A DNA stretch of 22,715 nt, taken from an uncultured Lachnospiraceae bacterium (lineage in GTDB: Bacteria; Bacillota; Clostridia; Lachnospirales; Lachnospiraceae). The stretch covers positions 1 through 22,715 of the forward strand of contig CAKRNI010000012.1 of assembly GCA_934370915.1 (NCBI GenBank), given 5' to 3'. Shown piece after piece: positions 5,723 to 9,365 of this stretch; within the stretch, counting starts at the first letter, position 1, and each line of letters starts with the position of its first letter. The notes below the pieces were generated by a model. That model had not been told where the DNA came from. It saw only the letters and a list, made by a program, of their open reading frames with translations, and ran no database searches. A program made the translations under genes and the position numbers.

Positions 5723-5793
5723 GCAGATATGGTTCATCGGTAGAACGCTAGCTTCCCAAGCTGGAAAGGCGGGTTCGATTCCCGTTATCTGCT
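5723..5793 (+). tRNA. tRNA-Gly (anticodon CCC)
   Basis: All four arms fold cleanly. The 7-bp acceptor stem is perfect (GCAGATA with TATCTGC), the D stem is GTTC/GAAC, the anticodon stem is CTAGC/GCTGG with loop TTCCCAA, and the T arm has TTCGATT in the loop. The anticodon at 5755-5757 is CCC, reading the glycine codon GGG. The discriminator base is T and the 3' CCA is not encoded, so it must be added after transcription. The gene stands alone with its own promoter and a strong terminator. Confidence 0.95.
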
Positions 5794-6299: not shown

Positions 6300-6707
6300 C
6301 TATCGTGCACTGATAAAACTTCCGCATGACGCTCCTGAAATCATGGAAACATTCCCGGATGTCAGGCAGTTCCCGCCAGTGCAGGAATTTAAACCGCAGT
6401 TTGTTCCGGAAGAGCAGCTGCCTCCATTGAAGCCGTTTGCGCAGCTGGTACCGCAATTATTTCCAGTTCCCCAACATGGATATCCCTTCCCAGATAACGT
6501 ATAAAGACCAATAGCATTTCCTGTGGAAATCACGCATCCGCCCTGCGTCCGAACCATAGAAATGGCATTGGTGCCAGTTGTGTATCCACAGTTGTTTCCC
6601 GGACGGAAGCCGGTTTGGCAAGAGCGGGACGCAGCGAAGGACGCGAAAGGCATTGCGAGTGTCATCATGGCGGAAACTGCGAGAGCAGTCATTATCTGTT
6701 TTTTCAT
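6300..6707 (-). CDS. Secreted cysteine- and glycine-rich protein, unknown function
   Basis: The 135-residue product begins with a clear Sec signal peptide: MKK, a hydrophobic core ITMALAV-like to about residue 22, and likely cleavage after the ASFAA segment near residue 25 or 26. The mature part of about 110 residues contains 11 cysteines (30, 40, 58, 78, 85, 89, 98, 104, 109, 114, 128) and is rich in Gly, Asn, Ser and Thr. A short unit recurs: NNCG at 38-41 and 83-86, and TNCG at 102-105. Between residues 78 and 114 cysteines fall every 4-9 residues. There is no cell-wall anchor motif, membrane helix or recognised enzyme motif. A strong AGGAGG sits 7 bases before the ATG, so translation is expected. 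The odd cysteine count suggests disulfide pairing plus one free or intermolecular thiol, or metal binding; this is inference. I do not recognise the family. It is transcribed alone, opposite to its left neighbour. Confidence 0.75.
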   Translation of the reverse strand: MKKQIMTALAVSAMMTLAMPFASFAASRSCQTGFRPGNNCGYTTGTNAISMVRTQGGCVISTGNAIGLYTLSGKGYPCWGTGNNCGTSCANGFNGGSCSSGTNCGLNSCTGGNCLTSGNVSMISGASCGSFISAR

Positions 6708-6842: not shown

Positions 6843-7634
6843 TTATTTCGCAGCAAGCGCCTCCCGATCTTTTTTAATCAGCTTCCTCATCGCCTCCACC
6901 GCTGTAACAACAGCGGCTTCTGTATCATAGACCTGCGGATCCTCAAGTCCTAATTCCCGCCTTGTCTGGTTCGCGATCACGAGCATCACAGAGCCGGTGC
7001 GGACTTTGCGGACGCTGCCGACGATGAAGAGGGCAGCGGACTCCATCTCGGAGGCGAGAGCACCACAGGCGATCCAGGCCTTCCATTTGGAGTTTAATTC
7101 ATCGGCCACCGGCATGGATTCCGGGGAGTGCTGGCCATAGAAGTTATCCTTGCACTGGACGACGCCGAGGTGATGGCGGTAGCCGAGTTCCTCAGAAGCT
7201 TCTTTTAACGCGGCAGTGACATCGAAATCCGGAACTGCCGGGTACTCAATGGGCGCGTATTCCTTTGTAGTCCCCTCAAAGCGGATCGCGCCGGTGGCGA
7301 TCACGAGATCTCCGCCAAGAACGTCCTTCTGCATGCCGCCGGATGTCCCAACACGGATGAAGGTGTCCGCACCGCAGTGGATCAGCTCTTCGACCGCAAT
7401 GGAGGCGGACGGACCGCCGATTCCGGTGGAGACAACGCTGACTTTTTCCTCGTCGAGATAGCCGGTATAGGTGGTGTATTCCCGGTTCTGGGCGATCTTT
7501 ACCGGGTTATCAAAATGTTTCGCAATCTTTTCACAGCGTCCGGGATCGCCCGGCAGGATCACGTAGCGTCCCACATCCCCGGTGCCGACGCCGATGTGGT
7601 ATTCTTTTCCCTTTGTATAGACAAGTTTACTCAT
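6843..7634 (-). CDS. udp: Nucleoside phosphorylase, uridine phosphorylase type
   Basis: The start is ATG 7634 (MSKLVYT) because GAGGAGG lies 6 bases upstream; a GTG at 7649 would fall across that ribosome-binding site. The 263-residue protein belongs to the PNP/UDP phosphorylase family 1. GDPGR (29-33) forms the phosphate loop, STGIGGPS lies at 69-76, RVGTSGG (94-100) carries the conserved arginine and threonine, and SEMESAA (195-201) holds the ribose-contacting Glu-Met-Glu. Uridine phosphorylases split uridine with phosphate into uracil and ribose 1-phosphate in the cytoplasm for pyrimidine salvage. The FYGQHSPES segment (165-173) is where base specificity resides. It differs from the E. coli motif, so purine nucleoside or broader specificity is not excluded. 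The gene is divergent from carAB, which makes pyrimidine precursors. Confidence 0.85.
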
Positions 7635-7759
7635 AAGCTGCCTCCTCACATAAGAAGTTTATAAGCAGGAAAAAATCATTCACAGCCGATCTTCAGAACA
7701 AGAAAGACACCTTCTGTCTGTGTCAGGGCTGTTTTCAAATCTTTCCTTTATTAATATTC

Positions 7760-7788
7760 ATTTTACCATTTTTCTTCAATAGAGACAA
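7760..7788 (-). promoter_or_regulatory. Likely promoter of the uridine phosphorylase gene
   Basis: On the minus strand TTGTCT (7788-7783) and TAAAAT (7765-7760) are 17 bases apart. An overlapping alternative, TTGAAG with TATTAA, also has 17-base spacing. Either gives a 5' leader of roughly 110-120 bases before ATG 7634. Confidence 0.4.
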
Positions 7789-7816
7789 CTCTTTATAATA
7801 TCTGAAAAGATACTTC

Positions 7817-7949
7817 GTTACTGTTCACGCCTTGCGCAAACAGTAACTGATTTTGCCGATGCTTCGCATTCCAAATCGGCAAAATCCACTACCACCACTG
7901 TACTGTACGGAATTTTCAGTTCAGAAAATTCCTACCCGTGTACAGTAAC
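7817..7949. mobile_element. MITE-like non-coding insertion, 133 bases, with 8-base flanking duplication
   Basis: The ends are GTTACTGT (7817-7824) and ACAGTAAC (7942-7949), a perfect 8-base terminal inverted repeat that extends to 12 of 13 matches (GTTACTGTTCACG against GTTACTGTACACG). GATACTTC stands immediately outside both ends (7809-7816 and 7950-7957), which is a perfect 8-base target duplication. Inside are three hairpins: GTTACTGTT/AACAGTAAC (7817-7847), a 12-bp stem GATTTTGCCGAT/ATCGGCAAAATC (7849-7886), and GGAATTTTC/GAAAATTCC (7909-7932). The last is enclosed by TACTGTAC (7901-7908) pairing with GTACAGTA (7940-7947). There is no ORF. It would need a transposase in trans. IS families that give 8-base duplications include ISL3, IS6 and IS66, but the parent cannot be named from these ends. 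It lies upstream of both flanking promoters and interrupts neither. Confidence 0.8.
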
Positions 7950-7957
7950 GATACTTC

Positions 7958-8186
7958 CAACAAAAAATAAATCCTCTATCAGAAGTCAGAAAAGTGTAAG
8001 ATACCGGTCGCTGATATTTATCCGGAAGAAAGACATCATGAAAAATACAGAATATATTTTTGCTTCGCGGCAAGAAATAAGCCAATCAGTCGAGTTAACA
8101 TAATTCAAAATTTCACTCCCAGACAACACTGGTTAGCCTGTCATAACTTTCACAAACAATTTCTTGAAAAATTTCACAAAAACCAG
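7958..8186. other. Intergenic stretch between the inserted element and the carA promoter
   Basis: I see no gene here. A 21-codon frame at 8038-8103 has only a weak ribosome-binding site. The region is AT-rich and contains TTTCACTCCCAGA at 8111-8123, nearly repeated past the promoter at 8241-8253. It also has several TTTCACAAA and TTGAAAAATTTCA segments near 8147-8180. Transcription-factor binding is possible but cannot be assigned. Confidence 0.4.
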
Positions 8187-8215
8187 TTGAAAAATCTCTC
8201 ACCGCATGATAGAAT
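8187..8215 (+). promoter_or_regulatory. SigA promoter of carAB
   Basis: TTGAAA (8187-8192) and TAGAAT (8210-8215) have an exact 17-base spacer, with ATG two bases before the -10. The predicted start near 8222 leaves a leader of about 70 bases. This leader begins with an 8-bp hairpin, GAAAATTT/AAATTTTC (8219-8244), but contains no obvious terminator or PyrR-binding site. Confidence 0.75.
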
Positions 8216-8291
8216 AGTGAAAATTTGGGCTGAAATAAATTTTCAATCCCAGATAGGAAACGAACACGAACACAGAAGAAAGGGTGGCGTC

Positions 8292-9365
8292 ATGAAAGCA
8301 TATTTAATACTGGAAGACGGAACCGTGTTTGAAGGAACAAGCATCGGCTCTACCAGGGAAGTAATCAGTGAAATTGTTTTTAACACATCCATGACCGGTT
8401 ATTTAGAAGTCCTTACCGATCCGTCCTATGCAGGACAGGCAGTGGTAATGACTTATCCGTTAATTGGTAATTACGGTATTTGTAAAGAAGATATGGAATC
8501 CGGAAGAGCATGGCCGGATGGTTATATTGTCAGAGAATTATCTAGGATCCCCAGTAATTTCAGAAGTGGGGACACGATTCAGCATTTCTTAGAAGAACAG
8601 GATATTCCAGGTATCAGTGGTATCGATACAAGAGCCCTCACAAAGATTTTAAGAGAAAAAGGAACCATGAACGGCATGATCACAACGAACGGATCTTTTG
8701 ATCTGGAAGAAGTGAAAGAGCGGATCAGGGCTTATCAGGTAACAGGCGTTGTATTAAAGACAACCACAAAGGAAAAATACGTTCTCCCGGGTACAGGAAA
8801 GAAAGTTGCACTCATGGACTTTGGCGCAAAGAAGAATATCGCCAGAGAGTTAAATAAGAGAGGCTGCGAAGTAACCGTATATCCTGCAGATACCCCGGCT
8901 GAGGAAGTATTAAAGACAAACCCGGATGGGATCATGCTTTCCAACGGCCCTGGAGATCCGGCAGAGAACACGGAGATCATCAAAGAAGTCAGAAAGTTTT
9001 ATGAATCCGATGTTCCGGTTTTCGCCATCTGTCTCGGACATCAGCTCATGGCTCTTGCCACAGGCGCAAATACATATAAGCTGAAATATGGCCACCGCGG
9101 CGGAAATCACCCGGTAAAAGACCTTGAGACAGGCCGCGTCTACATTTCCTCCCAGAACCACGGATACGCGGTAGACGAGCACAGCATGAATCCTGAGGTT
9201 GCCGTTCCGGCGTTCGTGAACGTGAACGATAAGACGAACGAGGGATTAAAGTACGTGGGCAAGAATATCTTCACCGTCCAGTACCACCCGGAAGCATGCC
9301 CGGGACCGCAGGATTCCGGATATCTGTTTGACCGCTTTTTACGCATGATGGAGGAGGAAAGATAA
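8292..9365 (+). CDS. carA: Carbamoyl phosphate synthetase small (glutaminase) subunit
   Basis: The start is ATG 8292 (MKAYLILEDG), preceded by AGGGTGG. The frame remains open further upstream, but that stretch is promoter and leader. The 357-residue protein has the CarA N-terminal domain (residues 1-150, with SYAGQAVVMTYPLIGNYG) and a class I glutamine amidotransferase domain (about 170-355). The nucleophile is Cys248 in FAICLGHQ, and the triad is completed by His332 and Glu334 in QYHPEA. It releases ammonia from glutamine and passes it to CarB to make carbamoyl phosphate for pyrimidine and arginine synthesis. Its stop overlaps the carB start by one base (TAATG), which fits equimolar, coupled translation. 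No pyr or arg genes adjoin. Confidence 0.96.
   Translation: MKAYLILEDGTVFEGTSIGSTREVISEIVFNTSMTGYLEVLTDPSYAGQAVVMTYPLIGNYGICKEDMESGRAWPDGYIVRELSRIPSNFRSGDTIQHFLEEQDIPGISGIDTRALTKILREKGTMNGMITTNGSFDLEEVKERIRAYQVTGVVLKTTTKEKYVLPGTGKKVALMDFGAKKNIARELNKRGCEVTVYPADTPAEEVLKTNPDGIMLSNGPGDPAENTEIIKEVRKFYESDVPVFAICLGHQLMALATGANTYKLKYGHRGGNHPVKDLETGRVYISSQNHGYAVDEHSMNPEVAVPAFVNVNDKTNEGLKYVGKNIFTVQYHPEACPGPQDSGYLFDRFLRMMEEER

Follow-up and report, generated by a model that had tools for sequence, protein, structure and literature searches.

Several well-described classes of mobile DNA resemble the element considered here in part, and they differ in the traces they leave at their targets. Insertion sequences of the IS66 family duplicate 8 bp and have ends that start with GTAA (GTAAGCG..), Tn7 duplicates 5 bp, and IS200/IS605 elements are not known to have inverted ends or a duplication. 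HUH enzymes are not known to leave a target duplication, nor is the REPIN/RAYT system, whereas an 8-bp duplication is present at the element studied here, a 133-bp sequence within a window of 22,715 nucleotides (the whole stretch of DNA analysed, from an uncultured Lachnospiraceae bacterium). The length of this duplication, and family ends that begin with GTTA or GTAA, recall IS66; however, the IS66 element of one genome that also carries the family (G213, locus L141) has the ends GTAAGCGTC and not GTWACTGTTCA, so that only the initial GTWA is common to both.

The closest described parallels are short repeats. ERIC, Correia/NEMIS and the QMITE2 of Coxiella appear, in the relevant part of PMC10969869, as short and mostly intergenic elements with inverted ends, a flanking duplication and transcripts with predicted stable stem-loops. 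The family described here is likewise short, with inverted ends and a flanking duplication. In contrast to these three, known here by description only, it has a fixed order of three covarying hairpins and a left end that is itself a hairpin, and its copies follow replication in their orientation in the best-sampled genome. REPINs, with their RAYT transposases, are similar in being hairpin units with compensatory changes and no internal transposase, according to the section of PMC3116915 that treats them, but the present element consists of three hairpins and has inverted ends with an 8-bp duplication. Copy orientation that follows replication is a property shared with IS200/IS605 and Tn7, as outlined in part of PMC5371812.

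The element and its neighbours

The element lies between a leftward gene (start at 7634), which we take to be udp-like and to encode a nucleoside phosphorylase, and a rightward gene (ATG at 8292) that is presumably carA, both names coming from an earlier note on this DNA and from general knowledge. Its near-perfect inverted ends, GTTACTGTTCACG and CGTGTACAGTAAC, match at 12 of 13 positions, or at 93% over 15 nt if the TC/GA of the duplication is counted in, and the octamer GATACTTC is identical at 7809-7816 and 7950-7957. The earlier note had given the same coordinates, exact duplication and end match, and all of these hold. No ORF of at least 90 aa in the window's ORF list overlaps the 133 bp, which are thus gene-less. 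The note had also described three internal hairpins: three are present, but hairpin 1 contains the left end itself, and the description therefore needs refining. As the left terminal repeat and its own inverted copy make up hairpin 1, the element contains two copies of ACAGTAAC at a distance of 102 bp. The features are as follows.

6843..7634, minus strand: flanking gene, taken to be udp-like (nucleoside phosphorylase); start 182 bp from the element
7809..7816, no strand: left copy of the 8-bp target-site duplication GATACTTC, read from the sequence, its 8-bp length borne out in relatives
7817..7949, plus strand (plus meaning hairpin 1 first): almost certainly a non-autonomous transposable element (MITE), 133 bp; best match in genome G019 92% identical over 133/133 bases; 152.9 bits with covariance model R1
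7817..7829, plus strand: left terminal inverted repeat GTTACTGTTCACG, from inverted-repeat comparison
7817..7847, plus strand: hairpin 1, in which the left terminal repeat pairs with its inverted copy AACAGTAAC; from fold, covariation, and solo copies in genomes G262 and G019
7849..7886, plus strand: hairpin 2, arms GATTTTGCCGAT and ATCGGCAAAATC; compensatory changes between genomes
7862..7866, plus strand: tip of hairpin 2, C(TTC)G here, or C(GAA)G when the minus strand is read; 84 of the 101 distinct members have C(TNC)G
7887..7908, plus strand: linker, from alignment A1
7909..7932, plus strand: hairpin 3, arms GGAATTTTC and GAAAATTCC; compensatory changes between genomes
7937..7949, minus strand: right terminal inverted repeat (CGTGTACAGTAAC on the plus strand), from inverted-repeat comparison
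7950..7957, no strand: right copy of the 8-bp target-site duplication GATACTTC, read from the sequence
8292..9365, plus strand: flanking gene, presumably carA; ATG 342 bp from the element

In 22 of the 26 sequences of alignment A1, by an eye count, YNTACGG closes the stretch formed by the linker and the two initial bases of hairpin 3. Elsewhere in the window, Rfam places a tRNA gene at 5723-5793, and on the minus strand a 135-aa ORF with a high content of Cys, Gly, Asn and Ser, and with a start resembling a signal sequence, occupies 6300-6707.

Copies, target duplications and the wider family

Eighty loci were gathered via the udp protein, and among the 23 genomes behind the chosen loci a single one has the element: G019, the genome of locus L020, Brotaphodocola catenula (Lachnospiraceae). 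It contains 38 matches, and within 24 genomes of its genus it alone carries the element. A DNA search of 397 Lachnospiraceae genomes gave five positives, namely G019, G262 with at least 40 matches (40 scored among 126 candidates), G331 with 11, G213 with one and G418 with one weak partial match. In 2.38 Mb of the approximately 3.3 Mb G262 genome, BLAST identifies 80 copies, and the covariance model R1, built from 26 copies, gives 64 hits of at least 80 bits. Members detected with R1 occur in 15 of the 397 genomes; in a class-wide draw of 391 genomes, the Lachnospiraceae share of which is not stated, they occur in one, which is G019 again.

Both ends could be placed by script in 39 of 60 loci submitted to a flank test, the remaining 21 being dropped. 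The flanking octamers are at most one base apart in 22 of these 39 relatives, against 3 of 1482 cross-paired flanks, and at most two bases apart in 29, against 10 of 1482. Other repeat lengths fit two loci only (7 bp at L091 and 10 bp at L111), possibly through a shifted boundary. The 2.38 Mb of G262 were also listed for end pairs whose duplication has no more than one mismatch; as the duplication was the selection rule, this list, which includes a second family (F2), is a census rather than a test. Pairs of 133 bp dominate it (54), followed by those of 30 bp (16), 61 bp (4) and 132 bp (3); lengths of 27, 40, 50, 57 and 63 bp occur once each, and four pairs are longer than 160 bp (4-7 kb), each of which has at least one poor end and looks like a chance pairing.

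The window element is short, lacks a transposase gene and has inverted ends, and its family shows dispersed copies flanked by a duplication of fixed length and variable sequence; it is, with very little room for doubt, a MITE. The transposition proposed in the earlier note is accordingly borne out by copies in relatives that have different 8-bp duplications of their own, and the many such copies that it had asked for are found in both G019 and G262. The contrary outcome it had named, a single copy at one fixed locus with the repeats forming part of the element, is excluded. Its expectation of empty sites in relatives fared less well: of the 80 udp loci only L001 also has carA, and udp there is turned round relative to the window, such that the spacer is not the same site and gives no true empty site. 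An R1 match is lacking in 79 of the 80 udp loci, some of which are cut short. The sole match, in L061, lies approximately 290 bp upstream of udp and has its own duplication, GTATTTCT; L061:4558-4686 is an independent insertion of a distant member in another Lachnospiraceae MAG.

Distant members are 116-153 bp long and retain the order of end, hairpin 1, hairpin 2, linker, hairpin 3 and end, even though their stems have little sequence in common. Twenty-two distant members (L061 and 21 cut loci) were folded against 60 shuffles each; in all 22, hairpin 1 starts from base 1 and is joined by further hairpins, with z between -4.1 and -11.3. Hairpin 2 is shortened in L270, and two G420 members lack a clear duplication and end differently (GACTTTTG..); at the boundaries set by the model, 13 of the 22 have a duplication with at most one mismatch. 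The second G262 family, F2, has the ends GTAACTGTTCAG, is likewise 133 bp long and follows the same plan. At the other extreme, the 30-bp copies of G262 are hairpin 1 alone or nearly so (e.g. L203:13063-13092), and two clear 31-bp solo copies with exact duplications were present among 14 stretches examined in G019 (e.g. L288:2579-2609). These solo hairpins of 30-31 bp are products of decay or else mobile units of very small size; as they still keep 8-bp duplications, it would seem that the middle was lost between CAGTAAC repeats.

Other short structured repeat families share the G262 genome (tiles L145-L184 of contig 1; near 478256, 714471 and 547142). Parts of two family members are also found at the end of the record MT839400.1 (L144, 4135-4312), which is labelled Bacteriophage sp. 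(unverified) and derives from human faeces; they adjoin an ORF that resembles a PHP phosphatase by eye, and the contig may be bacterial or chimeric. A literature search returned no paper on the element family by title or abstract start, and the motif GTTACTGTTCA matched unrelated papers only.

Conservation of the fold and orientation of the copies

Folded as RNA, the window element has a z of -8.9 on the plus strand and -7.2 on the minus strand; folded as DNA, the values are -9.0 and -7.9. In each of these four tests the element folds better than all 200 dinucleotide shuffles. In an alignment of 26 sequences, 96.5% of cells pair, against 85.8% in shuffles, and 12 of 29 pairs have changed on both sides, against 6.4 in shuffles. 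Covariation, scored on a structure derived from the same 26 sequences, is 0.275 against 0.073, with none of 500 shuffles as high. Related sequences can exceed shuffles without any structure, but with the partners slid, a control that retains relatedness, covariation is at most 0.049. Within genomes, change affects 80 of 4734 cells at stem sites outside the ends and 144 of 3332 unpaired cells (Fisher p = 3 × 10^-12, the cells not being independent), a count made on 74 of 84 sequences, the others having been dropped by length or grouping; as the copies are related, neither cells nor copies represent independent events. Three hairpins, one of them formed from the left terminal repeat, are thus kept by compensatory changes between genomes.

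Of 101 distinct members, 84 have a hairpin 2 tipped by C(TNC)G, against 4.7% of mononucleotide-shuffled regions; as the members are related, these are not 84 independent events. The variants are TTC (56), TAC (18), TGC (8) and TCC (2), the remainder being C(TTT)G (3) and others (14). Counted by genome and subfamily, C(TNC)G is present in 14 of 18 groups; the tip differs in G316, G323, G272 and L061, and in certain copies of five other groups. Its complement is C(GNA)G, with N free, and loops of the GNA type make, as Yoshizawa (1997) is quoted in part of PMC6479982, very stable DNA minihairpins. The C(GNA)G tip hence favours DNA, and the minus strand, as the form that matters, short of proof. 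The earlier note had likened the element to REP- or MITE-type repeats folding as RNA or DNA; the MITE and the folding stand, while the evidence leans towards DNA.

Orientation was scored with the strand that has hairpin 1 first as plus, and the leading strand of G262 was taken from GC skew over 80 kb. In this genome plus is opposite to the leading strand in 50 of 64 model hits and in 63 of the 80 BLAST copies, the other 17 having the same direction. Outside tandem pairs of leading-strand genes, i.e. in divergent or convergent positions, inside ORF calls, at contig edges or by lagging-strand genes, the ratio is 27:6 in favour of the opposite direction (the ORF calls are mechanical, and some cases inside ORFs may be spurious). 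The duplication-supported subsets give 33:9 for full copies, 12:3 for F2 and 10:3 for solo hairpins (3 of 16 could not be oriented), with F2 overall at 14:5. Two further G262 repeat families with differing ends, F3 (13:4) and F4 (AAAGAATGTGCCTTGG..; 28:1), are also biased, and F5, the control family (5:5), is not, which implies that the bias is not peculiar to the family of the window element.

For members outside G262, the leading strand was derived from a local skew of approximately 3 kb, which is confounded with gene direction; on this basis the ratios are 25:5 in G019, 15:7 in the distant set and 6:4 in G331 (one ambiguous), the last showing no clear bias. G272, considered as a second genome for the replication test, has three members only. 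The window copy itself belongs to the minority, lying on plus where the skew is +0.125. Relative to flanking genes that run in the same direction as one another, plus opposes the genes in 28 of 41 cases in G262, 16 of 20 in G019, 6 of 7 in G331 and 10 of 13 distant members (60:21 pooled). Under standard replication geometry, the majority orientation would place the minus sequence, with its GNA tip, on the lagging-strand template, where it would be exposed at the fork.

Candidate transposases and the mode of movement

A full insertion sequence with the same ends, which the earlier note had hoped for, was sought in part of the searches that could be made, and none was found; nor did an autonomous relative with these ends turn up in the 2.38 of approximately 3.3 Mb of G262. 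IS66 (PF03050) is present in two of four genomes (G331 and G213), with no match in G019 or G262 at E 0.001, and neither IS256 nor ISL3 has a match in G019 or G262 at that threshold. DDE_Tnp_1 was found in 12 of 15 genomes. Among 30 DDE_Tnp_1 loci, none combines the family ends with a duplication, L302 aside (G175, 924-2806, 1883 bp; matching ends, exact duplication), and this was rejected as a partner because it is a family member split by another IS, which has 22-nt ends CAATGTCATTTAGATAATTTAC, a 10-bp duplication CTGTATGAAC and a 442-aa DDE_Tnp_1 protein. In G262, 45 of 46 ORFs from 22 lone end pairs 600-4000 bp apart and from long repeats were scanned with Pfam (the other, of 91 aa, is cut by a tile border), without a DDE transposase among them. 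A Tn916-type integrase in one such pair (C1 232272-236210) was discarded as a partner, the flanks differing at 8 of 8 positions. Long repeats within the initial 800 kb of contig 1 occur in two copies only, comprising approximately 820 bp in two large serine recombinases and approximately 910 bp in two neighbouring NlpC/P60 genes, and none is a DDE transposase.

The explanation that best accounts for the whole, to which we assign a probability of about 0.65, is that of a non-autonomous MITE family spreading within Lachnospiraceae. A transposase supplied in trans would recognise the ends (GTTACTGTTCA), and its 8-bp staggered cut, once filled in, would produce the duplications observed. The covariation suggests that this enzyme may need the fold as well as the letters, the hairpins staying while the sequence, and in distant members the length, drifts. 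Most probably the fold acts as DNA, formed by the strand on which hairpin 3 comes first and hairpin 1 last, during the exposure of this strand on the lagging-strand template; the C(GNA)G tip, the lack of a G-U preference in broken pairs (see below) and the orientation of the copies would all be accounted for in this way. After insertion, some copies would drop the middle between the CAGTAAC repeats and leave a solo hairpin 1. Taken separately, a role of folded DNA and the replication fork in the movement is slightly favoured over the absence of such a role. A bolder version is speculative and rather doubtful: that a folded single DNA strand is the substrate and yet is inserted with an 8-bp stagger, by a Lachnospiraceae transposase that reads three hairpins on the lagging-strand template, of which one has a GNA triloop and another derives from the terminal repeat.

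Several points count against this preferred explanation: the searches made yielded no transposase with these ends, the copies are related, G331 lacks a clear orientation bias and the distant set reaches only 15:7, F3 and F4 share the bias, the window copy is a minority one, and the tip is not C(TNC)G throughout. Template switching can also homogenise palindromic DNA, so that changes resembling compensation would arise in the absence of selection. The element could be an ordinary MITE, the conventional DDE transposase of which is lost or elsewhere, with hairpins that are relics regularised by template-switch repair and a bias that stems from a transposase binding the replication clamp, as is described for several IS families. 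The ends, the 8-bp duplication and the copy number require nothing more than this, the broken pairs show no strand preference, and replication-linked orientation is documented for Tn7 and several IS families in the portion of PMC5371812 used here. However, hairpin order, tip motif and a narrow length of 116-153 bp have been kept despite dissimilar stems, which is beyond what would be expected of relics, and we regard the ordinary MITE as an unlikely, if credible, account.

Two further readings attribute the fold to other kinds of molecule or enzyme. A structured RNA carried on a mobile element (a small RNA, or an mRNA leader or processing element that influences adjacent genes), with the fold under RNA selection, would agree with the strong covariation, with the pooled orientation against tandem genes and with the minus strand being the better RNA folder in 63 of 66 distinct copies of F1, the last in part an effect of G/U composition. 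RNA selection should, though, make G-U exceed A-C on one strand, and the broken pairs comprise 40 A-C against 32 G-T (p = 0.41), which argues against it. Moreover, the bias tracks replication where genes do not (27:6), Rfam 15 reports only tRNAs above gathering score in the window and 20 member loci, and there is no terminator-like site in 7600-8330; a role as RNA is therefore very unlikely. Single-stranded DNA moved by an HUH (tyrosine) transposase, in the manner of REPINs or IS200/IS605 and with 8-bp repeats of some other origin, would fit the compensatory hairpin changes and predicted single-strand folding reported for REPINs in part of PMC3116915, and the lagging-strand orientation that a section of PMC5371812 gives for IS200/IS605. 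Exact 8-bp duplications of varied targets would be unexpected for such an enzyme, and when 2029 ORFs from 2.38 Mb of G262 were crudely scanned for a RAYT motif, 28 loose matches emerged, none RAYT-like by eye, and no match to a stricter pattern, leaving this reading highly improbable.

MITEs are often treated as decayed transposons with an irrelevant interior. A family in which the interior fold is kept and the copies are oriented with replication offers a directly testable case of a transposase that may read DNA hairpins; if the bolder version above were true, inverted-repeat MITE transposition and strand-specific hairpin transposition would be combined in one element. For gut Lachnospiraceae, the family adds an abundant and patchily distributed class of repeats, and a reason to seek the missing transposase.
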